A DNA stretch of 23,990 bases, taken from positions 1-23,990 of the IMG/VR virus record IMGVR_UViG_3300010396_001263; one strand, written 5' to 3'. Source of the DNA: a virus. The first letter of the stretch is position 1; each line of letters begins with the position of its first letter. Shown one piece after another: positions 3,353-23,676 of this stretch. Made by a program: the position numbers and the translations under genes. The notes under the pieces are model-generated. The model did not search any database. It saw nothing but the letters and a program-made list of their open reading frames with translations, and was not told the origin of the DNA.

Positions 3353-3379
3353 AGTTATTGAGTTTTGAGTTGTTGAGTG
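3353..3379 (-). repeat. Spacer repeat A, copy 1
   Basis: Read in the sense of the minus-strand genes this is CACTCAACAACTCAAAACTC followed by AATAACT. It fills the gap from the stop of the YRD-repeat gene to about 10 nt before the fibre ATG. The unit is a period-8 word AACTCAAY. Confidence 0.8.
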
Positions 3380-3859
3380 TTAGAAAGAGAGATAGCCGGG
3401 TCTTTTGCCGGCTTTTTTATATTTCATAGTGAAGCTCTGTATTTGTAGCTGGTCGAGGGCGGCAGGGTAATGCACGATAAAGTCATATTGGTTTGTAAAA
3501 TCCGCATCGCGGTAAATGAACAGTTGCGGCGTATGGGCGTCGGCATCGCGGTATAGAAAGGTTGCCGGCTCGACATCGCTGTCGCGGTAGAGGTATAGCT
3601 CGGGCACTTCGTTCACCACGTTTTCAATCCATATCCGCCTCAGGGTATTATCCATATAATCATTCAGCATGGCCTCCATACTGGCCGTCTGGCAGGTGTA
3701 CTGCATCGCCTGGATGGTTGCAGCCCCTGTAGCCGCATACGTACTATATAATGTAACCAGTGGCGAAATAAGGTTGCGGTACAGGTCGAGCCGCTTCGGT
3801 GTGCGGAGCTTCGGCCTGAGCCAGTCGGATATGAGCTGGTTGAAATCTGCGAGAATCAT
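3380..3859 (-). CDS. Conserved tail-tip protein with three YRD repeats, gpI-like position
   Basis: The 159-residue protein was not assigned to a family by sequence. Its N-terminal half is helical and starts with an amphipathic segment (ILADFNQLISDWLRPKLRTP). From residue 87 to 127 three near-identical short units occur, each containing YRD(S/A)D, with YRD at residues 91, 103 and 116; each is preceded by aromatic/aliphatic residues such as LYL, TFL or LFI. This suggests stacked short beta turns. It directly follows the gpJ-like gene (6-nt gap), the slot of Mu gp48/P2 gpI, which link the baseplate to fibres. A baseplate-to-fibre adaptor role is inferred from that position. Confidence 0.6.
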   Translation of the reverse strand: MILADFNQLISDWLRPKLRTPKRLDLYRNLISPLVTLYSTYAATGAATIQAMQYTCQTASMEAMLNDYMDNTLRRIWIENVVNEVPELYLYRDSDVEPATFLYRDADAHTPQLFIYRDADFTNQYDFIVHYPAALDQLQIQSFTMKYKKAGKRPGYLSF

Positions 3860-3865
3860 TTTCTT

Positions 3866-4675
3866 TTATTGCGCTATCCAGGTTATATTATCTGCTATCG
3901 TATTGCCTGTGCTGGTGTCTATCGCGGCATAGCCAGCTACTGTTGGGTAAATGCCAACCCAGGCGAGATCGGAGTTGCTGCCATTAAACCCTGAAAATGT
4001 CAGCCCCAAGTCATTGACGCCTACCGCCGCCTCGATAGCGTCTTCGAGCTTTATCTGCTCTACTACACCGTCAAACCTAATGTTCGCGAGATAAGCCTGT
4101 ATGGCTGCCAGCACGTTCGCCTGGACAGTTGCCAATGCGAGCTGCCCATTGTACCATATCTTGCCGCGGATCCTGATGGTATCTGCATTCAGGCTTGCGA
4201 TCGTAATGCGGTCGCCAGCGCCCTGGATGGCATTGATATAAGATGTAAAGGCCGTCATTTCCGCCGTGGCCAGCGGCGTAATCACACCGCTTATGTTCTT
4301 GGCCACCTTTATGCCTATAGTCCCTGTGATGAGGTTTTCAGGCACCGACGCGTAGGCTATTATTTGTTTTGTTGCATCAATAGTGGCATAGGCCGGTATC
4401 CCGTTGATAACCGTAACCGTATCTCCATATTGGAAATTGAGACATTGCTGCTTGTACCAACCCGGAGTGGTACTGAAAGATTTGGCGGCTATGCCGTTCA
4501 TCTGTAGAATGAGCGCGTCCCACATTTGCTGAAGAGTGACATAAATAAAAGCCACTCCCTGCCATATCATTTTCAGCCTGCCGGTGGCGGAGCCGTTTAC
4601 GATCGGGGCCAGGGAAGCGCGCCCGTTGGCATCAGTTTGCAGGTCGTTGAAAATTTCGTCTGTTGTCTGGGACAT
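3866..4675 (-). CDS. Baseplate J-like protein
   Basis: The 269-residue product resembles the baseplate J/T4 gp6 group of wedge proteins that form the outer ring of contractile-tail baseplates. The supporting region is the second half: TIRIRGKIWYNGQLALATVQ, then a long helix (ANVLAAIQAYLANIRF), then KLEDAIEAAVGVNDL, which matches the typical strand, helix and GV(x)D ending of the C-terminal J domain. The N-terminal part (residues 1-100) has helices and an aromatic stretch. The protein is slightly shorter than Mu gp47. It lies between a small tail protein and the YRD-repeat protein, matching the J-then-I order of Mu and P2. Confidence 0.75.
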   Translation of the reverse strand: MSQTTDEIFNDLQTDANGRASLAPIVNGSATGRLKMIWQGVAFIYVTLQQMWDALILQMNGIAAKSFSTTPGWYKQQCLNFQYGDTVTVINGIPAYATIDATKQIIAYASVPENLITGTIGIKVAKNISGVITPLATAEMTAFTSYINAIQGAGDRITIASLNADTIRIRGKIWYNGQLALATVQANVLAAIQAYLANIRFDGVVEQIKLEDAIEAAVGVNDLGLTFSGFNGSNSDLAWVGIYPTVAGYAAIDTSTGNTIADNITWIAQ

Positions 4676-4679
4676 GGGG

Positions 4680-4711
4680 AAGTTATTGAGTTAGATAGTT
4701 ATTGAGTTTTT
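4680..4711 (-). repeat. Spacer repeat A, copy 2 (overlaps a gene end)
   Basis: Sense reading has two AACTCAATAACT words separated by a short TATCTA. The upstream unit is inside the coding sequence of the 84-residue protein and encodes KNSIT just before its TAA stop. The downstream unit ends just before the gpJ-like start codon. Confidence 0.75.
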
Positions 4712-4945
4712 GAAGCAGTCAAGGCCGAGAATTGCATTTGTCGCGTCCGCAACACTGTATGGAGTCATGGATGAAAAAGTATAGCTCCGGGTATTGGGCT
4801 TAATGCCCCCGTTGTCGTAGATATCTACCACCACGGATACTTCATTCTTCTTTAAGCTGAAGTTTATATCCGTGATTTCCCAGGTGGCATTGATGAGCGT
4901 GAGGTCTGCAAAAAATTCGATCGTGCCTATTGTCTTGTACATCAT
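4691..4945 (-). CDS. Small phage tail-region protein, unrecognised
   Basis: This 84-residue acidic protein is not recognised. It is beta-rich (TIGTIEFFADLTLINATWEI, EVSVVVDIYDN, TRSYTFSS) with a short helix at SVADATNAIL, and could be a compact beta-sandwich structural protein. Two adjacent ATG codons start it. The last residues (KNSITI) are encoded by a unit of the AACTCAAY spacer repeat, so the natural C-terminus may have been replaced or extended by the repeat. It sits between the DUF1566-like adhesin and the gpJ-like baseplate gene, which suggests a minor tail-tip role. Confidence 0.6.
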   Translation of the reverse strand: MMYKTIGTIEFFADLTLINATWEITDINFSLKKNEVSVVVDIYDNGGIKPNTRSYTFSSMTPYSVADATNAILGLDCFKNSITI

Positions 4946-4948
4946 TAG

Positions 4949-4979
4949 AAGTTATTGAGTTGTAGAGTTATTGAGTTTT
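4949..4979 (-). repeat. Spacer repeat A, copy 3
   Basis: Sense reading is AAAACTCAATAACTC then TACAACTCAATAACTTC, two period-8 units upstream of the 84-residue protein start, beginning a few bases after the stop codon of the upstream gene. Confidence 0.8.
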
Positions 4980-4983
4980 ATGA

Positions 4984-5622
4984 TCAAAAATGTTTGCGTG
5001 CCATTAAGTAAGGGTTTGAGTTCGTCTTTGCCCCATTGGTTATCTGATACTCCTGCTGAAGCGCCGGGGCAGAAGTGGTATTCCTGGAAGTAGATGTCCA
5101 TAATGTTGAGCCGCCCCCCAGGGTTATAAAAAAGGGTTGGTAGTTAATCATATCGCCATTGCCTACTGTGCAGATCGAAAGCTGCTCAGATAGGTTAGGC
5201 AAGAAAAAGTCTCTATAAGTAACAGGGCCTACTGCAAGGCTGAACGTGGCATATTTACCAACCGCCGTAGCCCAGGCCGCCGCTGTTTGAAGCGTCTTGC
5301 ACCAACCGAGGCCGGTGCCGTGGTCTATCACATAATTGCTTGGATATGCCTGGTTGCCGTTTTCATCGGTGAACCGGAAAAAGTTACCGAACTTGTTTTT
5401 AAGGAGCAGCTGTGTGAAAGTGCTCCCGCGCCCGTGATTTTTGCTAAAATCATCGCCAGTTGCAAATGAAGTAGTCGCCCCTGTCTTGAGCACGTTTAAC
5501 ATGTTCAGCTGGTTCCTGGCTGCAACAGGCAGTAGGGTATTAAGTAAATTAATAACCAATGGGGGTGCCGACCTGAGGGCGCCGATAAAACCGGCGCGAT
5601 ATATGGGGTTCATTCCGTCCAT
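4984..5622 (-). CDS. DUF1566/Lcl-like domain protein, candidate adhesin
   Basis: The 212-residue protein has in its middle FRFTDENGNQAYPSNYVIDH followed by GTGLGW, resembling the DUF1566 (Lcl C-terminal) signature of the type D-x-x-TGLxW. The following segment (KTLQTAAAWATAVGKYATFS) matches the helix after it. Residues 160-205 contain a repeated-turn pattern (GGGSTLWTSTSRNTTSAPAL) typical of the fold end. DUF1566-type domains occur in surface and collagen-binding proteins and in phage tip adhesins. A short hydrophobic N-terminal helix (APPLVINLLNTLLPVA) could be a virion-attachment segment. Position in the tail-tip cluster supports host recognition; this is inferred. Confidence 0.6.
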   Translation of the reverse strand: MDGMNPIYRAGFIGALRSAPPLVINLLNTLLPVAARNQLNMLNVLKTGATTSFATGDDFSKNHGRGSTFTQLLLKNKFGNFFRFTDENGNQAYPSNYVIDHGTGLGWCKTLQTAAAWATAVGKYATFSLAVGPVTYRDFFLPNLSEQLSICTVGNGDMINYQPFFITLGGGSTLWTSTSRNTTSAPALQQEYQITNGAKTNSNPYLMARKHF

Positions 5623-5626
5623 TGCT

Positions 5627-5656
5627 AAGTTATTGAGTTGTTGAGTTGTTGAGTCA
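5627..5656 (-). repeat. Spacer repeat A, copy 4
   Basis: Sense reading is GACTCAACAACTCAACAACT then CAATAACTT: three consecutive AACTCAAY units between the 144-residue protein stop and the adhesin ATG. Confidence 0.85.
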
Positions 5657-5659
5657 TTG

Positions 5660-6094
5660 TTAGAAGTCCTCTGTTGAGCATACCACCGTGATCAGCTTGC
5701 CCGCAGTTACTGCTGCACCGGCAGCGGCGTAAAGGCTCCAACCTGTAGGCAGGTTGATGAAATAATTCCCATTCTGGTCCTGCCGCACATACAGTGTAAG
5801 CCCGGCGAGGAAGCTGACCGATATAGCTGCGGAGCTCATGCCAGATCCTGCGGGCACCGATATGGCTCCAATCAGGAATTTGGTAGTGCCGTTGTATAAA
5901 TAGAAAAGCATGTCCCTGGCGCTTGTGTCGTTGCTGGTGATACAGACCTTGTATATCCGGCTATCATTGGCCGCTGCCGCACATACGCTCTTGGAGTTAG
6001 TTCCAGTAACATCGCCTGCGCCGTCAGCGTTGGCGAAGGTTGTACCGGTCATGGAGATACCGGTGGTGAATACGGGGGTTATGTTTTTTGACAT
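5660..6094 (-). CDS. Putative virion surface/decoration protein
   Basis: The 144-residue product is rich in Ala, Gly, Ser and Thr and predicted beta-rich, with no enzyme motif. The series RIYKVCITSNDTSARDMLFY, YNGTTKFLIGAISVPAGSG and SVSFLAGLTLYVRQDQNGNY looks like a jelly-roll or Ig-like sandwich presented on a virion. Similar short proteins occur in other Bacteroidota phages beside tail-tip genes, but no family name is certain. It starts 3 nt after the LysM gene ends, so it is probably co-translated with it. It could be a tail-tip decoration or a trimeric fibre partner of the adjacent DUF1566-like protein. Confidence 0.55.
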   Translation of the reverse strand: MSKNITPVFTTGISMTGTTFANADGAGDVTGTNSKSVCAAAANDSRIYKVCITSNDTSARDMLFYLYNGTTKFLIGAISVPAGSGMSSAAISVSFLAGLTLYVRQDQNGNYFINLPTGWSLYAAAGAAVTAGKLITVVCSTEDF

Positions 6095-6097
6095 AAA

Positions 6098-6556
6098 TTA
6101 ACGGTATAAAGTGTTGTTTAAAATTTTAATCTGAATCAGGTTATTGGTCAATTCTGTAAGCGTCTTGCAGGCAAAGGGACGGGTCGCCGGCACGTTGTGC
6201 AGCACGCCGTCGCCATCAGTTACCCTGGAATCCGGTACCACATAGCCGTCCTGTACTTCGGCGCTCCAGCTCGCGTCTGTATTGGTAATATCCACTTCGC
6301 CGCTCACGCGCAGGTTATACATCTTCCCGGGAGGCTGCGGCAGCGCCACGGGCCATACCGGTATAGGATATGCGGGATCTTCGCCGGTGCGCACGTTCAA
6401 TGTCTGCCCCGGCGTAAGTGTATGCGTAAGGCTGTTGCCCAGGAGTGAAGCGTTGTCTTCCTCCAACAGCATGATCCCTCCCTGGTTGCCATACTCGGCC
6501 ATAGCTACATCGAGGAGTGTCTGATTGGGCGCTATTTCTACCTGATAAAAGGTCAA
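6098..6556 (-). CDS. LysM-like baseplate/tail protein with TTG start
   Basis: The 152-residue protein begins with a LysM-like unit: YQVEIAPNQTLLDVAMAEYG, a helix-turn, then LTPGQTLNVRTG. This fits the strand-helix-helix-strand LysM pattern over residues 4-57. In contractile systems small LysM proteins (P2 gpX, Afp7/Pvc7 types) tie the hub to the tube or baseplate. No in-frame ATG lies between the upstream stop and the domain, and the next ATG (residue 19) would remove half the LysM unit. The TTG one base after the TAA of the gp25-like gene is therefore the best start. The AACTT end of a spacer repeat runs directly into this TTG. Confidence 0.7.
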   Translation of the reverse strand: MTFYQVEIAPNQTLLDVAMAEYGNQGGIMLLEEDNASLLGNSLTHTLTPGQTLNVRTGEDPAYPIPVWPVALPQPPGKMYNLRVSGEVDITNTDASWSAEVQDGYVVPDSRVTDGDGVLHNVPATRPFACKTLTELTNNLIQIKILNNTLYR

Positions 6557-6587
6557 GTTATTGAGTTGGAGAGTTATTGATTATTGA
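6555..6587 (-). repeat. Spacer repeat A, copy 5 (overlaps stop and start)
   Basis: Sense reading is ATCAATAACTCTCCAACTC then AATAACTT. It encodes the C-terminal NNSPTQ and the TAA stop of the gp25-like gene, and its last base pair continues into the TTG start of the LysM gene. Confidence 0.8.
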
Positions 6588-6860
6588 TAATTGCCCATTG
6601 GCATATTGTATGGTCACATTTTTATAGCCGTCTGTTGCGAGCTGACTGTTGATCCCCGCGATATCGGACTGTTCTATAGTTCCGTTGAGCCTGGTGATGA
6701 TAGCGCAGCCAACAGTAGGCGCATAACGCAGCTCTCCCGGGATGATCTCAAGGATGTCCTGGATATTGTCCTGGTCGGCAGGGCCAATGGCGAGATCTTC
6801 CGCTTCCTCATCGAAGAGGATATCATAATCGGTGTCGTATTGCAAGTCTATATTAGGCAT
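6558..6860 (-). CDS. gp25-like baseplate wedge protein
   Basis: The 100-residue acidic protein matches the gp25/GpW family of small baseplate wedge subunits. The order of features is characteristic: a YDTDYDILFDEE start, LAIGPADQDNIQDIL, then IIPGELRYAPTVGC, where the family has a conserved L-x-x-PGE(x)-P-x-x-G block. These proteins nucleate the sheath and attach it to the baseplate. Length is normal for the family. The last six residues (NNSPTQ) are encoded by a spacer repeat and are probably not ancestral. It follows the spike gene by 5 nt and is followed by the LysM gene, a usual order for baseplate cores. Confidence 0.82.
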   Translation of the reverse strand: MPNIDLQYDTDYDILFDEEAEDLAIGPADQDNIQDILEIIPGELRYAPTVGCAIITRLNGTIEQSDIAGINSQLATDGYKNVTIQYANGQLSIINNSPTQ

Positions 6861-6865
6861 GATTT

Positions 6866-8474: not shown

Positions 8475-8475
8475 T

Positions 8476-9138
8476 TTAATCAAGGTTTTCAGGTGTGTCG
8501 CTTAAAAAGTCGAAGTTCATGAAGCACGTATTCCCTTTGCCCTGGTGCTGCTCGAATGTTTTGTCGTCAATAACTACCTGGCGGATATTGAAGATGTCGT
8601 TGAGGAACCAGCTATGAATATTTATATCATCTTTAATCGCCACAAATTGTGCGATCTGCCTCGAGAGGTTATAGGGAAATACGCGGTTGATATCGGAGAT
8701 CACGAGCTTGGCATTGATACGCCAGTCCCCTTCGCAGATGAACTGCTTTACCGTTCCGTCGCGGCCAGGGACAGGGGTTTTTACAATATTCCGCGCCTGT
8801 CTTACGGTAAACAGCACGGCATTAATGGCATAGCTTAGCTTCTGCCCGTTATATTCCAGGTTGAAATTGCTAAGCACCGGCGTCCCGATCAGGCTCATGA
8901 CCGGATGGCCATAAGTGGATACGGAACCGGGATCAGTGCGGGTATCCTGGAAGGGCTGTAACTGGAAAGCAGGCGCAGCTGGGTTCTTTAATGCCTGTGG
9001 CGCAGAGAAATCCTTGTCTGAAGTGGATTTCAGCTTGTCCGGCGCATTCTCGAAATGCTCGCCATAATAGGCAAGGATATTCTTCACCTCTACGGCGGTC
9101 CCGAAATTGATAAGTTTTATGCCTTTGAATACATCCAT
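8476..9138 (-). CDS. DUF6046-like conserved tail protein
   Basis: The 220-residue protein resembles a family seen in Bacteroidota phages (my recollection is DUF6046). The signature region is KTPVPGRDGTVKQFICEGDW followed by RINAKLVISDINRVFPYNLS, FVAIKDDINIHSWFLNDIFN and IRQVVIDDKTF. The alternation of beta strands around a GRxGTVK motif resembles tail-hub proteins that bridge tape measure and hub. The N-terminal 80 residues are proline-rich and probably flexible. It overlaps the tape-measure stop by one base and is followed by the hub gene after one base, which fits the slot of Mu gp43 or a P2 gpU-like protein. The exact role is inferred from position. Confidence 0.6.
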   Translation of the reverse strand: MDVFKGIKLINFGTAVEVKNILAYYGEHFENAPDKLKSTSDKDFSAPQALKNPAAPAFQLQPFQDTRTDPGSVSTYGHPVMSLIGTPVLSNFNLEYNGQKLSYAINAVLFTVRQARNIVKTPVPGRDGTVKQFICEGDWRINAKLVISDINRVFPYNLSRQIAQFVAIKDDINIHSWFLNDIFNIRQVVIDDKTFEQHQGKGNTCFMNFDFLSDTPENLD

Positions 9139-10907
9139 TACCTGCTTCCGCTCCCTCTAAAACTTGAATCGCCTATAGTGGCTAAAAATGCATCGTTAAC
9201 TTTATCCTGGAAATCGTCCGGCAGCTTGCCGTCGTTTGAGATGAAAGTAGCATTGGGCATGATAGGGCCATGAATATGAATATCACCGCGGCCACCTTTA
9301 TTTCCTGATCCGCTACCGGCATCGCCGGCGCTGACAGGCGCTTTGGGTATGATATCAGGATGTTCAAGTAATGACCGCTTGTATGCATTATCGGCACTGA
9401 ATCCGTCAATCGCATTCGCAGTTTCTGTGGCGCCACCTTTAAAAACCGAAAAATCTTGCGTTACGACACCTTTAAGCATCCGCAAGGGGCCATTCATGAT
9501 ATCCTGAACTTCGTTTTTTATAGCTTCCCAATTGGCCCTTATTCTTCCGGTGGAGTGTTCAAGCTTTTCCATATACTGGTAAAGCAGGTATATGGCCCCT
9601 ATCCCCAATGTAAAATACAAGGCCGAGTTCAATGCGATTGAGGAAAATGCAGCAGCGTTAAGCGCGGCGACAAGTTCCCAGGTTGTGGCTGTCTCGCTTA
9701 CCAGCGAGAGCATGTGAAACAAAGAGGCAGCGCTGGCCAGATAGGTTTGCACTTTTAGATAAGCCATGGAAAGCGCTACCCCTGCAATGACTATTCCTGT
9801 AGTCTTGACAATCCATTGATATTTTTCCAGCCATTTTATGGAGTCCCTCAGGGCGTCCACAAGAAATGTAACCCCTACGGCTAAAGCTTTATATGCGGGC
9901 AATAATACCTGGCTCATGGTGATGTTCAGTTCATGCATACTGTTGGCCTGCCTGATAAACCCGGCCTGGGCGCTGGCAGAATATTGCTCAATGGCGCCTG
10001 CATTTTCTTTTGCTGCCAGGGCAAGTATCTTTGGCATTTCAGTTACGGCATTAAATTTTCCCATTTGCAGCTCCTCGAACAATATGCGGTTTCCCATCTC
10101 GGGATTGCCTTTGATGTGCATCGTTTCCCTGGCTGCCTGGGCGAGGATCGGAACTTCCCTAAGCAGGGTTATCATCTGCCGCGGCCCTTCCTGACCCTTC
10201 GTAAATAAAGTGGAGAATGCTTCGTTTAGCTCTCCAAATTTTTCTTTGGAAAGATTGCCTGCGGCAGCTACCTTCATCCAATCTTCAAATATTTTTTTCT
10301 GGCCCTCAGAGCCTACCATTCCATGAAGCACCTGGCTCATCTTGGTGAAACCGTCTAATGATGATTCAGTAGATACACCCAGGTCATTGCTCCTTTTGCT
10401 TATAAACTCTATAGCGTCCCCGGCGGCTTTCTGGCTTCCAAGGTTTTGGCTCAGCAAATTTTCTATTCGCTCATATTCAACAGCCACGCCCCTAAGCTCG
10501 TGGAGGTAAGTGGCGGCACGGTCTATCACAAATATCCCGGCAACATAGGTGGTCACCTTTTTCGCCAGGTCGCCCAGCATCCCCATTCGGTCGAATAATC
10601 CCTGGGGCGGCTCATTGCCCATGCCTTCCAGTTCCTGCTTGGTTTTCCTGATCGCCCGGTTTGATTTTTCTATGGGGCCATCAACCAACTTCTGGTTATG
10701 TGCAATGTACCTCATCAGTGCATCGGCGCTGGTGTCTATCGGGCCTTTGCCGGCGGCGATCTGTGTATGGAGCTTTGCTACCTGATCCTGGAGCGTTTTT
10801 GTTTTGGCCGCTGCGCGCTCCGCCTGCCCTTCCAGTTTCTTCAGCGCATCATTTGCGAGATCCTGCAGGGAGATGGTATATGTAACGTTAGCGGAGGCGG
10901 AGGACAT
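9138..10907 (-). CDS. Tail tape measure protein
   Basis: This 589-residue protein has the tape-measure architecture. A coiled-coil N-terminus (residues 15-60) is rich in Leu, Lys and Gln, and a long helical middle follows. A hydrophobic block covers about residues 340-460 with several membrane-like stretches (GIVIAGVALSMAYLKV, YFTLGIGAIYLLYQYM). The C-terminal 70 residues are Gly/Asp-rich and low in order. Tape measures set tail length and help DNA cross the inner membrane. With the usual approximation of 1.5 Angstrom per residue the tail would be roughly 85-90 nm if uncleaved. It follows the tail chaperone block and precedes tip genes, the standard order. Confidence 0.85.
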   Translation of the reverse strand: MSSASANVTYTISLQDLANDALKKLEGQAERAAAKTKTLQDQVAKLHTQIAAGKGPIDTSADALMRYIAHNQKLVDGPIEKSNRAIRKTKQELEGMGNEPPQGLFDRMGMLGDLAKKVTTYVAGIFVIDRAATYLHELRGVAVEYERIENLLSQNLGSQKAAGDAIEFISKRSNDLGVSTESSLDGFTKMSQVLHGMVGSEGQKKIFEDWMKVAAAGNLSKEKFGELNEAFSTLFTKGQEGPRQMITLLREVPILAQAARETMHIKGNPEMGNRILFEELQMGKFNAVTEMPKILALAAKENAGAIEQYSASAQAGFIRQANSMHELNITMSQVLLPAYKALAVGVTFLVDALRDSIKWLEKYQWIVKTTGIVIAGVALSMAYLKVQTYLASAASLFHMLSLVSETATTWELVAALNAAAFSSIALNSALYFTLGIGAIYLLYQYMEKLEHSTGRIRANWEAIKNEVQDIMNGPLRMLKGVVTQDFSVFKGGATETANAIDGFSADNAYKRSLLEHPDIIPKAPVSAGDAGSGSGNKGGRGDIHIHGPIMPNATFISNDGKLPDDFQDKVNDAFLATIGDSSFRGSGSR

Positions 10908-10913
10908 TTTATT

Positions 10914-10943
10914 AAGTTACTGAGTTGTAGATTTATTGAGTGG
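10914..10943 (-). repeat. Spacer repeat A, copy 6
   Basis: Sense reading is CACTCAATAAATCTACAACTC then AGTAACTT, a diverged copy of the AACTCAAY spacer placed about 6 nt before the tape-measure ATG and starting at the stop of the small basic gene. Confidence 0.7.
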
Positions 10944-11195: not shown

Positions 11196-11215
11196 GCTTT
11201 TTATTGATTATTTGA

Positions 11216-12441: not shown

Positions 12442-13911
12442 TTAAAGGCTTGAAACAAAGCCGATGGTTACGTTAAATGTTCTTGAAATTCCTATACTTA
12501 CCAGCTTGATGGTGATAGCGATCGTGCTCGTTGCATTCACATCCTGGTTCGGATCAATTGTCACGATGGCGCCGCTGAGCTCGCCGTCCCTTTGCATCTG
12601 GTCGAGGGGAGCCTGGGCAATGGCAGTGAGCTCGCTTATGAAAGTGGAGGCCAGCTTGCCGCTCGTAGGATCTACTGGTACCTGGCCGTTGAGCAATGGC
12701 AGGATGGAAGCACGAACGTTCCGGATCGCCTTGTCAATGGTGCGCACGCGCTCGCCGCAATTGTAATCGCTGGTGGCGCTGGTACAGGTCGGGTCATCGC
12801 TCCAGAAAGTTCCGGTAAGCCCTATCTCATTCAGGGCAAAGACATAAGCCTTCGCCTGGATATCGCTCAGCGTGTTGCTTGCAATTGTAGAGATGAGGGT
12901 GCCGTCGCCCAGGGCAGGCGCGCTCATTTCTCCGTCCGGGTCTGCGATCGAATAACTTCGCCAGCCGATGTTCTGGCTTACCTTCAGGAAGGCATAAGAG
13001 CCAAGCCACTGTCCGATAGCCGGAACGCTATGGCCGAGCGATACTGCGAGAGCTGCCCCGGCGTTCTTACCGTCCTGGCCGATAATCACTTCCACGCCTT
13101 CCGCGTCGAGGGTGGTATTGTCCAGGAATGTAGTATGGTCCGTGATGGCGCTCGTGTCGGCGCCAAGTCCCAGGAGCGCGGGTTGGTTCCCGGCGCTGAG
13201 GGAATCATAAACGCCCTGGAGGGCAGTTACCATTGCCTGGGTAAAGGCGACTGGTAAGAATGCCGTCATCTGCCTGCACTTGCCTGCTGCCCAGGTTTGA
13301 AGGGTAACAAGCTCGGTGAAATCGTTGGTACCCGCGCCGGCTGCCGGGTCTGTGCCGATCCACAGGTAAAAGATACCTGAAGGCTGGCGCTTGAAGAACC
13401 GGTCTATAAAATAATATATGGAAGCAGTAGCGGTATTGGCGGAAGTGATCCCGTAATTTATAGCATCATAAATGCTGGTAAACCTCTGTTTGTCAGTGAA
13501 CGTGATTTGCGCTGCCGTTGCCCAGGCTGCCGTCGGCTGGCTCGCTCCCAGGGTAACCACCGCCCCAATGGTCACGCTCTGGTTGAGGTTCATCGTTACC
13601 TGTACATAATGCACGCCGGTAGTGATGGCGATAAACTTGCCTGCAAGCAATCCCTGCAGGTAGGTAGCGATCGCGGTGAGCGTGGTAGCGTCATCGGTAG
13701 TGAAGACGATATTGTGCGTCACGTTCAGCCCGTTGCTGCCGGTGATGGTAAGCGCTATGCTGTTGCTCGCAACCAGCGTGGCGCTGAAGGTGAGCCTGTA
13801 TGTAACGGTAGGGTTCTTGTAGTGCGCGTGCCCGGAGATAAAATCTTCTCCCGGGAGCGGAGCGCCTACACCGCCCTGGCCTTTGGTGAATGTAACTTTA
13901 GATAAGCTCAT
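12442..13911 (-). CDS. Contractile tail sheath protein, DUF2586-like
   Basis: The 489-residue protein matches the DUF2586-type sheath of Bacteroidota phages. Its N-terminus has the handshake-type strand seen in sheath subunits (MSLSKVTFTKGQGGVGAPLP), the middle carries inserted beta-rich segments, and residues 300-430 hold a Rossmann-like core (EVIIGQDGKNAGAALAVSLG, then VSQNIGWRSYSIADPDGEM). The C-terminus ends in strands for subunit interlocking (NATSTIAITIKLVSIGISRT). Subunits stack around the tube and contract to drive the spike through the envelope. The DPTCTS and DYNCGERVRTIDKAIRNVR segments near residue 380 also fit sheath proteins. It lies immediately upstream of the tube gene. Confidence 0.85.
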   Translation of the reverse strand: MSLSKVTFTKGQGGVGAPLPGEDFISGHAHYKNPTVTYRLTFSATLVASNSIALTITGSNGLNVTHNIVFTTDDATTLTAIATYLQGLLAGKFIAITTGVHYVQVTMNLNQSVTIGAVVTLGASQPTAAWATAAQITFTDKQRFTSIYDAINYGITSANTATASIYYFIDRFFKRQPSGIFYLWIGTDPAAGAGTNDFTELVTLQTWAAGKCRQMTAFLPVAFTQAMVTALQGVYDSLSAGNQPALLGLGADTSAITDHTTFLDNTTLDAEGVEVIIGQDGKNAGAALAVSLGHSVPAIGQWLGSYAFLKVSQNIGWRSYSIADPDGEMSAPALGDGTLISTIASNTLSDIQAKAYVFALNEIGLTGTFWSDDPTCTSATSDYNCGERVRTIDKAIRNVRASILPLLNGQVPVDPTSGKLASTFISELTAIAQAPLDQMQRDGELSGAIVTIDPNQDVNATSTIAITIKLVSIGISRTFNVTIGFVSSL

Positions 13912-13952
13912 AAGTTATTTGGAAATTTGGAAATGAGACAATTTGAAAATTG
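13912..13952. repeat. Spacer repeat B with short A remnant
   Basis: The gap before the sheath ATG carries AATTTGGAAATGAGACAAT (bases 13924-13942 on the plus strand) plus ATTTGAAAATT. It begins with AAGTTATT, the reverse of the AATAACTT end of spacer A. A near-identical AATTTGAAAATGAGACAAT occurs at 20329-20347. Confidence 0.7.
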
Positions 13953-14474: not shown

Positions 14475-14480
14475 TTATTT

Positions 14481-15687: not shown

Positions 15688-16362
15688 TTAATTCAATTGA
15701 TAAGGCGCGCCATCAGGGTAGAAGGCTGTGCCATCATAGGTGAATGTTTGCACGAAATCTTTTCCTGCCACGCCAACAATATCTGGCTGGACTGCAAAGC
15801 CGGTTCCGTGCACATTGTGTTCTGTGCCGGTGGTTCCAACCTTAAGCTGGATCTTCGCGCCCTTCCTTACGGTGTCATCAATCGTGAGATTGATTGTCCT
15901 GGTTGCAGTGGAGATGGTTGTTAAACCATCTATGATCGTCATCTGCGCATTGATCTCCACGGCCTGTGCGCCTGTTGCTGTCAGCGCCACTACCGGTACC
16001 GCAGAAGCGGAAGGCTCAGCAGTGAGTGGCAGGAAGTTGGTGCCGTCATATATAAAGAGCAGCTGCGCGCTTTCGCCTACCACGCCCGCGAAATGAGGGG
16101 CGGAGAAGCCGGTACCAAAAATGGTTTTGCTTTCAGTGCTGGTAGCGATCTTTACCAGGATGAGTGAAAATGCCTGGAGCGATTCATCCAGTGTCAGGTT
16201 TATGGTCCTGTCCCCGGTAGCAGCTATAGAAGCGCCATCAATGATGGTTGCATTGTTTGCAATGTCAATCGCCTGTACGCCGCTGGCCGTTAGTTCAAAT
16301 GAGTCCGCGTCCCCGAAAGGGAACCGAATCGTATAATTTTGTTGTGAATTGTCGTTGCTCAT
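15688..16362 (-). CDS. Capsid decoration candidate with duplicated domain
   Basis: The 224-residue protein consists of two tandem copies of a 90-residue beta-rich domain. Residues 22-112 and 125-215 align with a constant 103-residue offset. Matching blocks are ELTASGVQAIDI with ALTATGAQAVEI, TIIDGASI with TIIDGLTT, DRTINLTLDE with TRTINLTIDD, FGTGF with HGTGF, and FIYDGTNFLP with FTYDGTAFYP. It is not a named family to me. Lying between protease-scaffold and capsid genes, it fits a head decoration or stabilisation protein of the lambda gpD or Hoc kind. The internal duplication suggests each chain binds two surface sites or spans two capsomers. Confidence 0.65.
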   Translation of the reverse strand: MSNDNSQQNYTIRFPFGDADSFELTASGVQAIDIANNATIIDGASIAATGDRTINLTLDESLQAFSLILVKIATSTESKTIFGTGFSAPHFAGVVGESAQLLFIYDGTNFLPLTAEPSASAVPVVALTATGAQAVEINAQMTIIDGLTTISTATRTINLTIDDTVRKGAKIQLKVGTTGTEHNVHGTGFAVQPDIVGVAGKDFVQTFTYDGTAFYPDGAPYQLN

Positions 16363-16396
16363 AAGTTATTGAGTTGCTGAATTATTGAGTTATTGA
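16363..16396 (-). repeat. Spacer repeat A, copy 7
   Basis: Sense reading is ATCAATAACTCAATAATTC then AGCAACTCAATAACTT, running from the stop of the protease gene directly to the ATG of the decoration gene with no other spacer. Confidence 0.85.
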
Positions 16397-17575
16397 TTAG
16401 CTGTTGTAGCAGGCGTCAAAGAGCGCTTTTTTGGTTTCCGGATGTGCGGCAGTGAGTTTTGCCAGACCCTTTGGGTCTTTCTTTTCCCAGTCGCGGTGCG
16501 ACCAGGATTCACGGTCTTTCGGAATGCCAGCCATGAGGTTGGCATCAGTACCACCATTGCCTGCGGCTTTGGCTGCCAGGTTCTGGATGGCTTCTGTAAT
16601 GCTTTCCTTTTTGCCACCGGTGGTACCGGCAGGGGAAACCGTAGCGGCAGGCGCTTCACTCACGAGCTTCAGCGTGCTGTCAAAATCTTTGGCAGCGAGC
16701 GCCTTCACCGTGGCCTCGTTTGTGTCATTGACAAAGCCGGTTTTGCGCCCTAAGGCTACCAGGCTGTTTATGAGGGTATCGTTAGATCCCCCGGCAGAAG
16801 CGGCTGCGGCTCCGGCCCCTTTATCTTCAGGCGCTTTTTTGAGCGCTGCCGAAAGGGCGGTTAATATTTCCTGCTCCGAGGCGTCTTCTTTAAGCCCCAG
16901 GGCGAGTGCAATTTCTTTGTTCATACGTGTATTATGTGATTTGAAATTTGTGATTTGTGATTTGAGGGAGGCAGGCAGGTTTTTGAAATCACAGGCTGCA
17001 ATGCTGTAGTTTGCAACTGCCTTGTAATCCATGCTTTCTATAATGCCGTCAATGAAGCCAAGGGCTTTTGCTTTTTCAGCGCTGAGCCAGGTTTCGGCGT
17101 TCATTATGGTTTCGATGCGCCCTTCAGGAAGACCGGTCTTTTCGCAATACATCCCGACCATGGTTTCCTTCATGTGGACCATCATATCCTTAATGCCGTC
17201 CAGCTGCTCTACTTTCACACTGTCGAATGAAAGCGAAGGATCGTGGATCATGAGCATGGCCTTGGGGTGCATGTACACTTTCTTGCAGGCCATCAGAATA
17301 ACGGTGCCCATACTTGCGGCGAGCAATGGAACATATCCTGTAACAGTACCCGGGAAAGCCTTTATATCATTTGATATGGAGACGCCTTCCCAAACTGAAC
17401 CGCCCGGACTATCTACATAAAGATCAATTGCTGTAATTCCGTCTTTGGCGAGCTTCTGTATCTGCTGCCTGAAAACAAGAGCGGTTGTATCACTTCCAAT
17501 AACCCCGTTGATATCTATCCTCGCGGTCTTTTTGGTAGCGTCTGCCGTAATTGTGAACCAGCTTTTGAGTTGCAT
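16397..17575 (-). CDS. ClpP-like head maturation protease fused to scaffold-like region
   Basis: The 392-residue product starts with a ClpP/S14-type protease (residues 1-180). VDSPGGSVWEG at 54-64 supplies the oxyanion loop, LLAASMG at 84-90 the catalytic Ser88, and MLMIHDPS at 107-114 His111. AETWLSAEKAKALGFIDG near 150-165 is the conserved end. Such proteases cleave scaffold and capsid during head maturation. Residues 218-392 form a helical, Ala/Lys/Glu-rich scaffold-like domain that starts MNKEIALALGLKED. An internal ATG at 16922-16924 could make the scaffold alone, like Mu Z or lambda Nu3. The junction (SQITNFKSHNT) is encoded by an intergenic-type repeat in frame. Confidence 0.85.
   Translation of the reverse strand: MQLKSWFTITADATKKTARIDINGVIGSDTTALVFRQQIQKLAKDGITAIDLYVDSPGGSVWEGVSISNDIKAFPGTVTGYVPLLAASMGTVILMACKKVYMHPKAMLMIHDPSLSFDSVKVEQLDGIKDMMVHMKETMVGMYCEKTGLPEGRIETIMNAETWLSAEKAKALGFIDGIIESMDYKAVANYSIAACDFKNLPASLKSQITNFKSHNTRMNKEIALALGLKEDASEQEILTALSAALKKAPEDKGAGAAAASAGGSNDTLINSLVALGRKTGFVNDTNEATVKALAAKDFDSTLKLVSEAPAATVSPAGTTGGKKESITEAIQNLAAKAAGNGGTDANLMAGIPKDRESWSHRDWEKKDPKGLAKLTAAHPETKKALFDACYNS
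16936..16966. repeat. Spacer repeat B inside the protease-scaffold gene
   Basis: ATTTGAAATTTG continues as TGATTTGTGATTTGAG, the same simple repeat found in untranslated gaps of this window. Here it is translated as about ten junction residues just before the internal ATG of the scaffold-like half. Confidence 0.65.
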
Positions 17576-17578
17576 AAC

Positions 17579-17594: not shown

Positions 17595-17741
17595 ATTAAA
17601 AAACCGTGTGCAAATGCTTGATTATTAGTTTGACAGGATTATTTCACAGTGTGCAAAAATGATAACACACTAAGGAATTGATATTAGAAATTGGGGATTG
17701 GATGTTTGAAATTTGAACCACAATAAGAGTCAGGGATCAAT

Positions 17742-17772
17742 CTCAATAACTCAATAACTCCCCAACTCAAAA
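17742..17772 (+). repeat. Spacer repeat A, copy 8
   Basis: CTCAATAACTCAATAACTC then CCCAACTCAAAAATT, ending 7 nt before the small terminase ATG. The 15-nt AACTCCCCAACTCAA is identical to bases 21740-21754 inside the portal fusion gene. Confidence 0.85.
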
Positions 17773-17779
17773 ATTGTTT

Positions 17780-18229
17780 ATGACACCAAAACAAGCCGCT
17801 TACGACCTGTTTGAAATCGGATGGACGCAGAAGCATATCGCTGCAGCCCTGAAGATCAGCGAGACCACCATAAGCAAGTGGGCAAAGAAATATGACTGGG
17901 ACGGCGAGCGCGCCAAGAACACCGCTGCCGACGAAGCCAACGAGGCACGGCTGAAAAAGCTCATCAATTACAACCTCCGGGTGCTCCAGCTTAAAACCGA
18001 AGAATGGGAGCAGGCCGGTGAGCTGAAGCTCATCGAGCGCGGGGATGTGGACGCACTTAGCAAGCTTTATTCATCCATCAAAGGCAAGGAGCATACCTGG
18101 GCGCAGCAGGTGGAGCTGATCACGGAGTTTATCGGCTTTGTAGAAAAGAAAAGCCTTGACCTGGCTAAAAAGCTATTACCGCTCGGCGATGAATTTGTAA
18201 CCGGTAAAAAAGCGTCTGTCAATGGATAG
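17780..18229 (+). CDS. Terminase small subunit-like DNA-binding protein
   Basis: The 149-residue protein starts at ATG (MTPKQAAYDLFEIG). A TTG six bases upstream was rejected because the ATG follows the spacer repeat more normally. Residues 10-38 form a helix-turn-helix (GWTQKHIAAALKISETTISK), followed by WAKKYDWDGERA, the usual small terminase pattern. The rest is helical, including an oligomerisation-type segment near 75-125. Small terminases recognise phage DNA and recruit the large subunit. It overlaps the large terminase start by 8 nt, which strongly supports the pair. Confidence 0.82.
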   Translation: MTPKQAAYDLFEIGWTQKHIAAALKISETTISKWAKKYDWDGERAKNTAADEANEARLKKLINYNLRVLQLKTEEWEQAGELKLIERGDVDALSKLYSSIKGKEHTWAQQVELITEFIGFVEKKSLDLAKKLLPLGDEFVTGKKASVNG

Positions 18230-19820: not shown

Positions 19821-19860
19821 TCAATGATCAATAACTCAACAACTCACTAACTCAATAACT
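19821..19860 (+). repeat. Spacer repeat A, copy 9
   Basis: TCAATGATCAATAACTCAAC then AACTCACTAACTCAATAACT fills the gap between terminase and gp36-like genes. Its first 22 nt are identical to bases 23638-23659. Confidence 0.88.
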
Positions 19861-19863
19861 TCT

Positions 19864-20325
19864 ATGTCCCGATTCATGCTCGACAGCGATTATACGCCTT
19901 ATGTTTCCAGCCCGCGGATGCAGCAGCTTATTGGCACGGATATGACTGCGATACAGAGCTTCGAGCCTACGGCGCAGCAGATGATCACCGACGCGCTCTT
20001 CGAGCGGTACGATGTTGCGGCAATATTCGGCGCGGCGGCAGATCAGCGCTCATCAACCGTGATCCTGTGGATGCGGACCATCGTGATGTACTTTGTTTGG
20101 GAGAAGGTGGACGACAAGCTGAGGCCGGAGAGCGTGAAGCTGAATTACAACAACACCATCGCGCAGCTCAACGCCATGCAGCGCGGCGATATCAACGTGC
20201 AGCTATCACGCCTGGAGGTGTGGCCGGACGGCAGCCAGGTAAAGACAAAATTCAGGGGCGGCTCGGAACCGAAATTCCGCGACGACCCCAGGACGAAAGG
20301 CAGGCGATGGAGATGGGACGATTAA
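19864..20325 (+). CDS. Mu gp36-like (DUF1320-type) head-tail adaptor candidate
   Basis: The 153-residue protein resembles Mu gp36-type proteins: helical, starting FMLDSDYTPYVSSPRMQQLI, then FEPTAQQMITDALFERYDVA and RSSTVILWMRTIVMYFVWEK. The helix order with a YDVAAIFG segment matches small head-tail connector adaptors. The C-terminal third is basic (KTKFRGGSEPKFRDDPRTKG). Its place between terminase and portal is unusual, since in Mu it lies among head completion genes. The start ATG follows the spacer repeat by 3 nt. Confidence 0.6.
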   Translation: MSRFMLDSDYTPYVSSPRMQQLIGTDMTAIQSFEPTAQQMITDALFERYDVAAIFGAAADQRSSTVILWMRTIVMYFVWEKVDDKLRPESVKLNYNNTIAQLNAMQRGDINVQLSRLEVWPDGSQVKTKFRGGSEPKFRDDPRTKGRRWRWDD

Positions 20326-20327
20326 GG

Positions 20328-20347
20328 CAATTTGAAAATGAGACAAT
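20328..20347. repeat. Spacer repeat B copy in the gap before the portal gene
   Basis: CAATTTGAAAATGAGACAAT starts 2 nt after the gp36-like stop. It differs by one base from AATTTGGAAATGAGACAAT at 13924-13942 over the shared stretch. The remaining 50 nt to the portal start contain TTTTAAACCGTTTTAAAC, a TTTAAA-type palindrome-like word. Confidence 0.65.
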
Positions 20348-20399
20348 GCAGGACGGGGCAGAACCCGCTTTTAAACCGTTTTAAACTTACGTGTAACGC

Positions 20400-22979
20400 A
20401 TGAACTTACTACCAGTGGTACAAACTCCCGCGCGATGGCTAAAAAGCCTTGTACAGCGCGACGTGCAGAGTACGCCCGATAACCCGAATATACCGGACAA
20501 GCGCAAGGGCGCCCTGGCGACCTACAAGATAAAGCAGGTGCAGCCCCTCAGGGTGAACATGGAGCTTGATAAATGGAGGCGCTACGTGGATATGGCCATC
20601 AACCCGTACATGTACAACCGCTATGGCCTGTATGCTTTTTACAGGGAAGCAAGCATGGATCCCCAAGTCATCAGCCAGAGACAGCTGCTCATGTCCAAAG
20701 TATTGTGCCAGCCTTTCACCCTGGTAAAAAAGGGGGAAAACCCGCACAGGGAAGATATAGCAAACGACCCCGGCATTGAAAAGCTGCTGAAGCCACTGAA
20801 GCGCCCATGGATGATGGACTTCGACCGGTACAGCATGGAGAGCGATGCGTGGAGCCATAGCCTGATTGAGTTTGACGAGATGGGCCCGAGCGACAGCGGT
20901 ATTGTTGCACAGGAGTTCACCAAGATCGTCCTGGTACCCAGGGAGCACGTGAAACCGGAATGGGGCGAGATACTGATATACCCCATGGAGCTGCATGGGT
21001 TCAGCTACAGGGAAGCGCCCTTCAGTGACTGGCTTGTGGAGATTGGAAGGACTACCGGGGGGATTGACTCTCTTGGTTACCTGCTTAGCGCCAGCCGTGA
21101 AGTGATCTGGAAAAACCAGACATTGAGCGATGCGGCCAGGTATAGTGAGAAGTTTGGCGGTCCTCTTACCGTGCTCAAATCTGCAAGCAACGATGATAAA
21201 GAGCTGGATAAGAAAGAGCATTTTCTCAGGCACATGGGATCGAACGGCTATGCTATCCTGGATAAAGAAGACGATATCACCCTGCTTACGACCGGCGACC
21301 GCGGCACCGGTGTTGATACTTATATCAAGCTCCTCAATTATAAGGATGAATCTATTTCCAAATTGATGACTTCCCAGGTATTAAGCACGGACACCGGCAG
21401 CAAAGGCAGCGGATCCTACGCCCTGGGCAATGTGCATGAAGACACAGTAGATGATGTGGTGAAGATGGTTATGACGTGCAGGGAATATGAAAAAAACTAC
21501 ATCTTGTTCCCGCACCTCATCAAGCATGGATATGACTACCTGAAGGATTACGACTACCGGTATGTGAACCTGCTTAAAAGCAAACCGGTTGACCCGGGAA
21601 TGTTAAACCCGGAACCCGGGAGTGAAGATGACAACGGCCCGCAAGGGTCAAAAAAAAAAGTAGCAGCCTCAAAGCTCTTTACGGGACACATCAGTAAACA
21701 GAGCGGGGAGCGGAGAGCGTTAGCCCTCAGCAACTCAGCAACTCCCCAACTCAACAATTTGTCCGGGGACGATGACTTCCTGGACGAGATGGCGACCTTC
21801 GCGTATGAGAACCGCGACGACACCGGCAAGCTGAACACGGATGTCTATCTCAAGATCGCGAAGCAGATGTTCGAGCGCTTTGCCGGCGGCTTCAAAACTT
21901 CTTATGATGTGCCGGAAGGCAACCCCTCAGGCTTCAAGGCATTCATCCAGCAGAACCTTTTCCCTTTCAGCGCTGCCAGGAACTTCAGCGAGCTGGAGGA
22001 CATGCGTGGGAAGCTGCTCGACGAGAACGGCGTCCTGAAGCCTTTAAACGTTTTTAAACAGGACGTGGCGGCCATCAACAGCAATTATAACAAGACCTGG
22101 CTGGGCACGGAATACAACTACGTGCAGAAAAGCGGCGTGCTGGCCGCGAAATGGAAAAACTTCCAGGACAATGACCTGATCACAAACCTTACCTGGCATA
22201 CGTCCGAAGAGGAGAACGTTTGCCCGATATGCTTCCGGTTCGATAAGCTGACCCTGCCGAAGGATCACCCGTTCTGGAAGACCTGGTACCCTTTGTTGCA
22301 TTTTTTATGTAAGTGCTGGGTTGACGCTTCAGAAGACCATGCAGTATTAACGCCGGAACCTAAGGCGTATGATATCGCAAAGAAAAGTGATGTAAAACCA
22401 TTCTTTCAAAATAATCCCGGCGCGAGCAGGATTGTGATGAAAGACGACCATGCCTTTTTCGAGGCGAAGCCGCTGCGGGCCATCCAGGAGCTGAAGGCCG
22501 AAGACAACTACAACCTGCGGCCAGTGGAGAAGATATTGAAGAACGACACGCTGGCACCGGCAGCGCCATTGTTGAAAGACATCCCCGCTTACCAGGAATG
22601 GGTGAAGAAGTTCATGGACACACGCGGCAAAAAAGGCGCGAAAGCGCTGATCGGGGATGTAACCGGCATTGACATCACGGCAAGGGAAAAAGAACTCGCG
22701 CAGTTTGAAACCAAGAAACCGGCAGAGAAAAGATGGGAGTATGCCAACCGGCTGGAGGATGTGCTGCGGAACCCTGACGAGGCCTACCAGTTCTACGAGA
22801 ATTCAATTTTGAAAAGGAGCTATATCAAGTACTATGACGATATGGTGATGATTGCGATCGGGGAAGTCAGGGAACCGGATGTAGTTCTAAAGACCTGGTA
22901 CAAATGGGACGGAACAAAAGACAGCATGAATAAAGTAAGACACGGGACATTGCTCCATCTGGTAAGAATAAGGCCTTAA
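20400..22979 (+). CDS. Fusion: DUF935-type portal + Mu F-like minor head protein + nuclease-like C-terminus
   Basis: The 859-residue protein joins three parts. Residues 1-417 are a DUF935/Mu gp29-type portal (KFGGPLTVLKSASNDDKELD, then MTSQVLSTDTGSKGSGSYAL with VHEDTVDDVV). Residues 418-455 are a linker with polylysine KKK and LSNSATPQLNNLS, the latter encoded by a spacer repeat. Residues 456-700 are Mu gpF/SPP1 gp7-like, with a zinc-knuckle-like C608-x2-C611, H634-x2-C637-x-C639. Residues about 785-859 (LRNPDEAYQFYENSILKRSY, IKYYDDMVMIAIGE, VLKTWYKWDG) resemble PBECR/RelE-barnase-type domains fused to gpF proteins. In most phages portal and gpF are separate genes, so this length is unusual. 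An A10 run lies at the first junction. Confidence 0.82.
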   Translation: MNLLPVVQTPARWLKSLVQRDVQSTPDNPNIPDKRKGALATYKIKQVQPLRVNMELDKWRRYVDMAINPYMYNRYGLYAFYREASMDPQVISQRQLLMSKVLCQPFTLVKKGENPHREDIANDPGIEKLLKPLKRPWMMDFDRYSMESDAWSHSLIEFDEMGPSDSGIVAQEFTKIVLVPREHVKPEWGEILIYPMELHGFSYREAPFSDWLVEIGRTTGGIDSLGYLLSASREVIWKNQTLSDAARYSEKFGGPLTVLKSASNDDKELDKKEHFLRHMGSNGYAILDKEDDITLLTTGDRGTGVDTYIKLLNYKDESISKLMTSQVLSTDTGSKGSGSYALGNVHEDTVDDVVKMVMTCREYEKNYILFPHLIKHGYDYLKDYDYRYVNLLKSKPVDPGMLNPEPGSEDDNGPQGSKKKVAASKLFTGHISKQSGERRALALSNSATPQLNNLSGDDDFLDEMATFAYENRDDTGKLNTDVYLKIAKQMFERFAGGFKTSYDVPEGNPSGFKAFIQQNLFPFSAARNFSELEDMRGKLLDENGVLKPLNVFKQDVAAINSNYNKTWLGTEYNYVQKSGVLAAKWKNFQDNDLITNLTWHTSEEENVCPICFRFDKLTLPKDHPFWKTWYPLLHFLCKCWVDASEDHAVLTPEPKAYDIAKKSDVKPFFQNNPGASRIVMKDDHAFFEAKPLRAIQELKAEDNYNLRPVEKILKNDTLAPAAPLLKDIPAYQEWVKKFMDTRGKKGAKALIGDVTGIDITAREKELAQFETKKPAEKRWEYANRLEDVLRNPDEAYQFYENSILKRSYIKYYDDMVMIAIGEVREPDVVLKTWYKWDGTKDSMNKVRHGTLLHLVRIRP
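21650..21659 (+). other. A10 run at the portal/minor-head junction, possible slippery site
   Basis: Ten A residues encode KKK (residues 418-420). Slip by +1 gives an immediate TAG at 21661; slip by -1 gives twelve codons and TAA at 21695. Either releases a portal of about 420-432 residues without the minor head domain. Runs of nine or more A are known slippage sites for polymerase or ribosome. Confidence 0.5.
21726..21758 (+). repeat. Spacer repeat A, copy 10, in frame inside the portal fusion
   Basis: CTCAGCAACTCAGCAACTCC then CCAACTCAACAATT. Fifteen bases are identical to the spacer upstream of the small terminase gene. Here it is translated as LSNSATPQLNN between portal and gpF parts. Confidence 0.85.
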
Positions 22980-22987
22980 ACCCCGCA

Positions 22988-23017
22988 GTGGCCGAGTCGG
23001 GTTTTAACCGACGCCAC
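22988..23017 (+). other. Strong hairpin in the gap before the gpG-like gene
   Basis: GTGGC pairs with GCCAC and GTCGG with CCGAC, with a three-base CGA bulge and a loop GTTTTAA. No T tract follows, so it is not a classical terminator. It lies 60 nt upstream of the next ATG, whose leader (ACAAAGATACAAATAAA) is A-rich as in Bacteroidota starts. It may protect or regulate mRNA. Confidence 0.6.
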
Positions 23018-23076
23018 AACGCCCGGGCTAAGGCCTTGAGATACTATCAATATCCAGGAACAAAGATACAAATAAA

Positions 23077-23667
23077 ATGCCAGAGTTTGATAAAAATATA
23101 TTCCAGGGCCTGCGCAAGAGCATTGGCAAGACCTACGGCGAGCTGGCGGATATCGTGGCCAAAGAATCCGTGGCATGGGTGAAGACGAACTTCAGGATGC
23201 AGGGATACCAGGGCAGCAACGGCTTCTCGGCGTGGCTGCACCGCAAGAACGATCCCGACCCCAGCAGGAAGATATTGCACCTGAAGGGAATCCTGGAGAA
23301 CGCCGTTATCGTGTTTGAGAAGAGCCAGCGCCGCGTGACCATCGGCGTGGATGGGCGCAACGTCCCCTACGCGAAGCTGCACAACGAGGGCGGAACAGTG
23401 ATGGTGCCGGTAACGCCGAAACTAAGGAAATGGGCATGGGCGATGTATTATGAGAGCGGGGGCGATAAGGAAGAGAACGAGGTTGCAGGCAGGTACAAGG
23501 GAATAGCTTTGACAAAGAAAGAGAAGCTGACGATAAAGATACCGCAGCGGCAGTTTATGCCGCTCCCGGAAGAGGTGAACCAGAACCTGCACGATTACCT
23601 GGTGCAGAAGATAGCCGAGCGCCTGAAAGATAATATGTCAATGATCAATAACTCAACAATTCAATAA
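23077..23667 (+). CDS. Mu gpG-like virion morphogenesis protein
   Basis: The 196-residue protein matches the phage virion morphogenesis family (Mu gpG, head/tail completion). Typical features are the N-terminal helix (GKTYGELADIVAKESVAWVK), LHLKGILENAVIVFE, then GVDGRNVPYAKLHNEGGTVM, and the IPQRQFMPLPEEV segment near the end. The family helps finish heads or tails and join them. The last residues (MSMINNSTIQ) come from the AACTCAAY spacer repeat, so the native end was probably near residue 186. It follows the portal-gpF fusion by about 100 nt, a usual neighbour order. Confidence 0.8.
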   Translation: MPEFDKNIFQGLRKSIGKTYGELADIVAKESVAWVKTNFRMQGYQGSNGFSAWLHRKNDPDPSRKILHLKGILENAVIVFEKSQRRVTIGVDGRNVPYAKLHNEGGTVMVPVTPKLRKWAWAMYYESGGDKEENEVAGRYKGIALTKKEKLTIKIPQRQFMPLPEEVNQNLHDYLVQKIAERLKDNMSMINNSTIQ

Positions 23668-23676
23668 CTCAATAAC
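23638..23676 (+). repeat. Spacer repeat A, copy 11 (overlaps a gene end)
   Basis: TCAATGATCAATAACTCAAC continues as AATTCAATAACTCAATAACTT up to 8 nt before the next ATG. It encodes the end and TAA of the gpG-like gene and shares 22 identical bases with the copy at 19821. Confidence 0.88.

Follow-up and report, generated by a model that had tools for sequence, protein, structure and literature searches.

Why would one short sequence be placed repeatedly, and always in the same direction, in front of the genes of a single phage? The question is raised by a stretch of 23,990 bases from one IMG/VR virus record (IMGVR_UViG_3300010396_001263), here called the window, which carries eleven copies of an element built on the octamer AACTCAAY. 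Ten of the copies lie before start codons, all in the sense direction, and the eleventh lies at the junction of a fused gene. The reading that we favour, with a probability of about 0.58, is that the element would act as an unstructured intercistronic translation leader for ribosomes that initiate independently of a Shine-Dalgarno (SD) sequence, and that it was copied from gap to gap within the phage.

Number, orientation and form of the element

AACTCAAY matches the window 18 times, against 1.36 matches expected, and none of 100 shuffles reaches 18. This agrees with the original prediction, in which eleven copies had been listed and judged too regular for chance; all eleven are present. When the 13-mer AACTCAATAACTT is searched with up to two mismatches, 20 matches are found versus 0.4 expected, of which 18 are in sense and at most 27 nucleotides (nt) upstream of a start; they occur on both strands and take the direction of the two gene blocks. 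The other two lie at the fusion junction (21748) and inside a gene (15631). No antisense match is found in a leader among the 20, in line with the earlier claim that orientation follows the gene. Outside the leaders AACTCAAY occurs twice (20865 and 23823), each time as a single intragenic unit on the opposite strand.

The element consists of three units and a 5-nt tail, 29 nt in all, with a two-base variable site in the second unit. It can be written as AACTCAAYAACTC-nn-YAACTCAATAACTT, or unit by unit as AACTCAAY AACTCnnY AACTCAAT AACTT, and its consensus contains no G. This fixed form replaces the two to four free core repeats that had been proposed. When the copies are aligned at the tail, the length is 29 nt in 10 of 11, the copy at 3353 being 1 nt shorter, and substitutions pile up at nn (12/20 cells versus 15/270 elsewhere, Fisher p = 2.5e-9), where at least five different dinucleotides occur. 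The same sequence can also be read as two 13-nt direct half-sites (AACTCAAYAACTC and AACTCAATAACTT), 16 nt apart, with a free linker between them. The AACTCAAY arrays of bacterial genomes have 2 to 14 free units, whereas the phage element keeps its form; the fixed length and the variation focused on nn make it unlike fresh slippage arrays. The nn-focused variation is the main hint of a constraint on the sequence besides its lack of structure and, with eleven related copies, only a suggestive one.

The copies differ from each other in ways that bear on their history. The tail AATAACTT, described earlier as the usual ending, is exact in 8 of 11 copies, while those at 10914, 17742 and 21726 end in AGTAACTT, AAAATTG and ACAATTT, respectively. 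The core is not found in every copy either, given that the one at 10914 carries AACTCAGT and CACTCAAT and no exact AACTCAAY. Several copies run on at the 5' side with TCAAT or TCAATGATCAATAAC. As had been noticed before, the copies at 19821 and 23638 share a 22-mer, TCAATGATCAATAACTCAACAA, which lies in their 5' extension, and those at 17742 and 21726 share a 15-mer, AACTCCCCAACTCAA (at 17756 and 21740), and belong to a sub-variant marked by CC at nn and by AATT in the tail. These shared derived features (the 22-mer, and the CC at nn with the AATT tail) suggest that one ancestral leader was copied between gaps within the phage lineage. A search of viral contigs for the exact 22-mer gave no match. 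The idea of a mobile micro-repeat, which was one half of the original interpretation, is thus upheld as far as copying within the phage is concerned (22-mer, 15-mer, fixed form, absence from relatives), whereas neither mobilising machinery nor copy boundaries were found.

RNA properties and proposed function

The leaders that carry the element are poor in G and weakly folded. They contain 1.2 G per 40 nt versus 6.9 in the other leaders of the phage, and the mean minimum free energy predicted from -40 to +20 is -1.5 versus -6.0 kcal/mol (Mann-Whitney p = 0.0004). Random 60-mers average -12.0 kcal/mol, and the same array leaders reverse-complemented in place -8.0 kcal/mol. The 40 nt upstream of the array genes alone fold to about 0 kcal/mol, and no common inverted repeat is found in them. 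An SD-like core is present in 2 of 29 phage leaders and in none of the array leaders. The single match to a Bacteroidota-type promoter lies about 200 nt upstream of its gene and apart from the element. The second half of the original interpretation, an unstructured translation-initiation leader, fits these properties: nearly G-free, predicted to be unfolded, without SD, in sense only and directly before starts.

The host is probably a member of the Bacteroidota, because the relatives of the large terminase (TerL) encoded in the window come from phages of Bacteroides, Flavobacterium, Winogradskyella and Porphyromonas, and also from a few of the sampled Bacteroidota genomes. No close relative was found in IMG/VR with TerL, sheath and portal queries, the best TerL having 50-53% identity, and five distant prophage-like TerLs are present in 395 sampled genomes.

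In the proposed mechanism, the almost G-free single strand of 29 nt would bridge the stop codon of a late gene and the next start on a polycistronic mRNA. Ribosomes of Bacteroidota leave SD sequences unread and need an unfolded start region, so that such a leader could make the next start accessible. The element would then raise initiation, and its TAA triplets may also terminate stray upstream translation in some frames; all three forward frames are closed by stops within 45 nt in 5 of 11 copies.

Placement of similar repeats in Bacteroidota genomes

The genome collection has over 113 contigs with three tandem units, (AACTCAAY)3, most of them from Bacteroidota. The strict 20-nt array is present in 4 of 395 sampled Bacteroidota genomes (about 1%), which makes the unit sporadic and not a phylum-wide signal. 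Orientation was counted with ATG starts only, given that antisense arrays contain TTG, which creates false start codons. AACTCAA is identical when read backwards, and a reversed-pattern control is uninformative.

AACTCAAY arrays within 60 nt before a start are in sense in 39 cases and antisense in 12, and those within 30 nt after a stop are in sense in 9 and antisense in 31 (Fisher p = 3e-7). The same tendency is seen with unrelated C-rich micro-repeats, counted when more than 300 nt from any AACTCAAY array: 30 sense to 10 antisense before starts and 14 to 30 after stops (p = 9e-5). A stricter filter leaves out the two genomes rich in arrays, other phyla where named, and units that look alike, and gives 17:5 and 5:16 (p = 7e-4). 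All these counts are indicative, the loci having been picked for AACTCAAY arrays, the genes called by simple open reading frame rules and many arrays contributed by two genomes. This shared bias towards sense copies before starts, in AACTCAAY and unrelated units alike, is consistent with the leader interpretation. Equal use of both orientations had been named beforehand as the result that would speak against it. This is in part what is seen outside the phage, where both orientations occur genome-wide, but the antisense arrays are characteristic of the positions after stops and not of those before starts. A difference in position bias between Bacteroidota and other phyla had the expected direction and was not significant (1/18 versus 12/64 arrays).

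Outside the repeats, the last 20 nt before ATG are depleted in G, and stops are followed by no G excess. The antisense bias of the C-rich micro-repeats after stops is unexplained by base composition there. In the loci compared (L013-L125 and L377-L415), the C-rich strand tends to have its 3' end next to a coding sequence, whichever way the repeat points. One sampled genome has, at a contig end (L578, genome G403), an array of AACTCAAY, AACTCGAT and AACTCACT that is several hundred bases long.

Comparison with related phages

Among about 60 TerL relatives (L126, L127 and L438-L516) no comparable expansion of the element is found. Nine leaders in the window have an 8-mer in common, versus at most four in any of these relatives, in most of which the frequency of AACTCAAY is near background. 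The gap between TerL and the gp36-like gene is 43 nt in the window and between -7 and +4 nt in roughly half of the relatives. In three others it measures 32-89 nt and is occupied by different repetitive sequence, of the ATTATCAATTAA type in L479, of the AAATTAA type in L470, and of the GCAGTAGG and AAGCC types in L463. In L126 a different G-poor micro-repeat, AACCATTTA, stands before another gene. Given that the relatives hold other micro-repeats in the homologous gap or in leaders, it is the position that recurs while the unit changes, and the G in the repeats of L463 makes G-freeness a tendency and not a law. Other micro-repeats in this gap are seen in L463 and L439, some of them with G (GCAGTAGG, AAGCCAGAAGC), and L456 has CACCCACC in four leaders.

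Comparison with known systems

No description of AACTCAAY repeats was found in the literature searched, which omits most subscription papers. One of the two closest parallels is the TAACTGA family of intergenic direct repeats, reported from Beggiatoaceae, Cyanobacteria and five Bacteroidetes (MacGregor 2015, PMC4679880). In the Guaymas Maribeggiatoa these are mostly forward and just upstream of start codons, and a translational role was proposed (PMC4679880). In the Bacteroidetes F. litoralis DSM 6794, 12 of 14 sets point forward and precede a start, and a single reverse set directly follows a stop codon (PMC4679880). TAACTGA repeats overlap the ends of upstream open reading frames, give unstructured RNA and have forward stops in all frames (PMC4679880). 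As in those genomes, several forward sets end a few nt before a start, which ten copies of the element fit, and no SD lies between repeat and start in the array leaders. The two differ in that the TAACTGA unit has 7 nt and contains G, while AACTCAAY has 8 nt and is G-free, and in that TAACTGA sets have two to six or more free copies, compared with a fixed 29 nt and a variable dinucleotide in the phage. TAACTGA was described from cellular genomes, phages being unmentioned in PMC4679880, whereas the element is packed into one phage.

The start-associated sequences (SAS) of cluster K mycobacteriophages and their extended form (ESAS), whose function is unproven (PMC3203893), are likewise short and asymmetric, and stand immediately upstream of many genes of one phage, nearly always oriented with the gene. 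However, SAS is a G-rich 13-bp sequence, GGGATAGGAGCCC, common to all cluster K phages, and about half of its sites are extended by 17-bp inverted repeats, whereas the consensus element lacks both G and inverted repeats and does not occur in related phages. The element thus fails the sequence definitions of TAACTGA and SAS and may, at most, work like them.

Ribosome profiling of Flavobacterium johnsoniae showed SD-less initiation that is helped by low structure from -20 to +20 (PMC6847099). The array leaders resemble its initiation regions in their low structure, A-rich and G-poor upstream sequence and lack of SD. In F. johnsoniae, however, single genes show biases in composition and position (A at -3, -6, -12 and -13; PMC6847099), whereas in the phage one sequence recurs in many leaders, and A at -3 is not retained there. 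Long simple sequence repeats and phase-variable tandem repeats, which lie between promoter and start (reviewed in PMC4679880), are also short tandem units upstream of genes, but the phase-variable ones are homogeneous and vary in copy number, whereas the phage element has a fixed length in 10 of 11 copies and diverged units.

Alternative explanations

Several observations weigh against an unstructured leader. Many genes of the phage have no element, the distance from element to start varies from 0 to 13 nt, and the Kozak-like A at -3 is present in about 1 of 9 ATG-start array genes, as read from the leader list. Lack of structure alone leaves unexplained both the 27 of 29 positions that are mostly kept and the pile-up at nn. 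A G-free composition itself gives low structure, and such a composition could also result from neutral drift under selection against G. The main rival is a neutral micro-repeat filtered by selection, which would have arisen by slippage or template switching in one gap, passed to others by homologous exchange and been kept where harmless; it would survive between genes, oriented so that no G-rich, stop-rich or structured RNA precedes a start. The variable-length arrays of many Bacteroidota genomes, found in both orientations and often away from starts, are what such a history would leave behind, and so are the other micro-repeats in the same gap of related phages. On the antisense strand three units contain TGA in all frames, so that the unit would be purged from the interior of genes. 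We nonetheless consider this history unlikely, though deserving serious attention, as it sits poorly with a fixed 29-nt length and non-uniform variation, with eleven copies that are all in sense and mostly fill the whole gap, and with an expansion that has no counterpart in the related phages.

The mutations that spare both half-sites and gather in the linker could instead point to a sequence-specific site, in which a host or phage protein (bS1, a cold-shock or an RRM protein, for example) would bind the paired 13-nt direct repeats in single-stranded RNA and so coordinate the translation of late genes. The tail AATAACTT, which recurs ahead of the sheath gene at the end of another repeat, and the similar binding models proposed for TAACTGA repeats (PMC4679880) agree with this idea. 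We regard it as improbable, given that no candidate binder is known, that the spacing to the start is loose, that eleven related copies are a small sample, and that the many unrelated units found at this place in bacterial genomes speak against a single specific binder. A phage-wide translational regulon, in which the 29-nt RNA element would replace SD on the late genes and be read by a host or phage factor, appears hardly more probable. The position of the copies exactly at gene boundaries, with one at a fusion junction, would also suit joints of recombination or modular exchange, or promoter or transcription elements at gene borders. This is very improbable, because most of the gaps leave no room for a Bacteroidota promoter and show no -7 TAnnTTTG box, the element is unable to form a terminator hairpin, and neither inverted repeats nor duplicated flanks are seen. 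Promoter, terminator and phase-variation readings were rejected. An artefact of assembly, raised as an alternative in the original prediction, was also rejected, since the copies differ, are in register with the flanking genes and supply some of their stop and start codons.

The wider interest lies in how ribosomes of Bacteroidota choose a start without SD pairing. The ten leaders, nearly identical but naturally varied in spacing and at two bases, are a ready test bed for this, together with the unrelated G-free micro-repeats at the same position in bacterial genomes; with them, lack of structure alone can be told apart from a particular sequence as the driver of initiation. Portable leaders for expression in Bacteroidota could result.

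The copies and their genes

The window encodes the head and tail module of a contractile-tailed, Mu-like phage: a small terminase (Terminase_5), a large terminase, a Mu gp36-like protein, a Mu portal fused to MuF and a PBECR2 nuclease domain, a tail-S virion morphogenesis protein, a ClpP-type protease with a scaffold region, a DUF2586 sheath-like protein and baseplate hubs. Array genes are preceded by short gaps (about 1-43 nt, with one exception), most of them filled by the element, which supplies the upstream stop codon at three genes (4691-4945, 6558-6860 and 23077-23667).

On the minus strand, the copy with the 1-nt deletion (3352-3380) precedes gene 2578-3342, and that at 4680-4708 precedes the baseplate-like gene 3866-4675 and contains the final codons, stop included, of the upstream gene 4691-4945. 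Gene 4691-4945 is itself preceded by a copy at 4949-4977, and gene 4984-5622 by one at 5627-5655. The copy at 6555-6583 belongs to gene 6098-6556 and gives the TAA stop of gene 6558-6860; here the end of the element itself supplies the TTG start, which qualifies the earlier description of the copies as lying in gaps just before a start codon. The diverged copy (10914-10942) stands before the tape-measure-like gene 9138-10907, and that at 16363-16391 directly adjoins the ATG of gene 15688-16362.

On the plus strand, the copy with the AAAATTG tail (17740-17776) precedes the small terminase gene (ATG at 17780), the one with an extended 5' part (19821-19861) separates the large terminase gene from the gp36-like gene (ATG at 19864), and that at 23638-23678 precedes a gene starting at 23685 and gives the TAA stop of gene 23077-23667. 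The remaining copy (21726-21760) is translated as part of the portal-MuF fusion gene (20400-22979); it lies at the junction, encodes residues 443-454 and has no in-frame TAA. Portal and MuF are two genes in relatives such as L126, L445, L440, L458 and L471, and fused and separate forms are both common. Alignments of the separate genes end near fusion residues 393-429 and start near 444-504, which places this copy on the border between the two. Gene fusion can thus turn an intergenic micro-repeat into coding sequence. The PBECR2 nuclease-like domain is C-terminal in the same protein (residues 736-853).

Two other micro-repeats occur in the window. The period-8 repeat (ATTTCCAA)n, at 13912-13951 on the minus strand, precedes the gene for the sheath-like (DUF2586) protein, 12442-13911, and shares the AATAACTT-ATG tail with the main element. 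The repeat (AATCACA)n at 16935-16964 is translated in frame in the linker between the ClpP-type protease and the scaffold, just before an internal ATG (KSQITNFKSHNTRMNKE); given that the relatives likewise have a single fused protein, it is either a linker expansion or an old leader.
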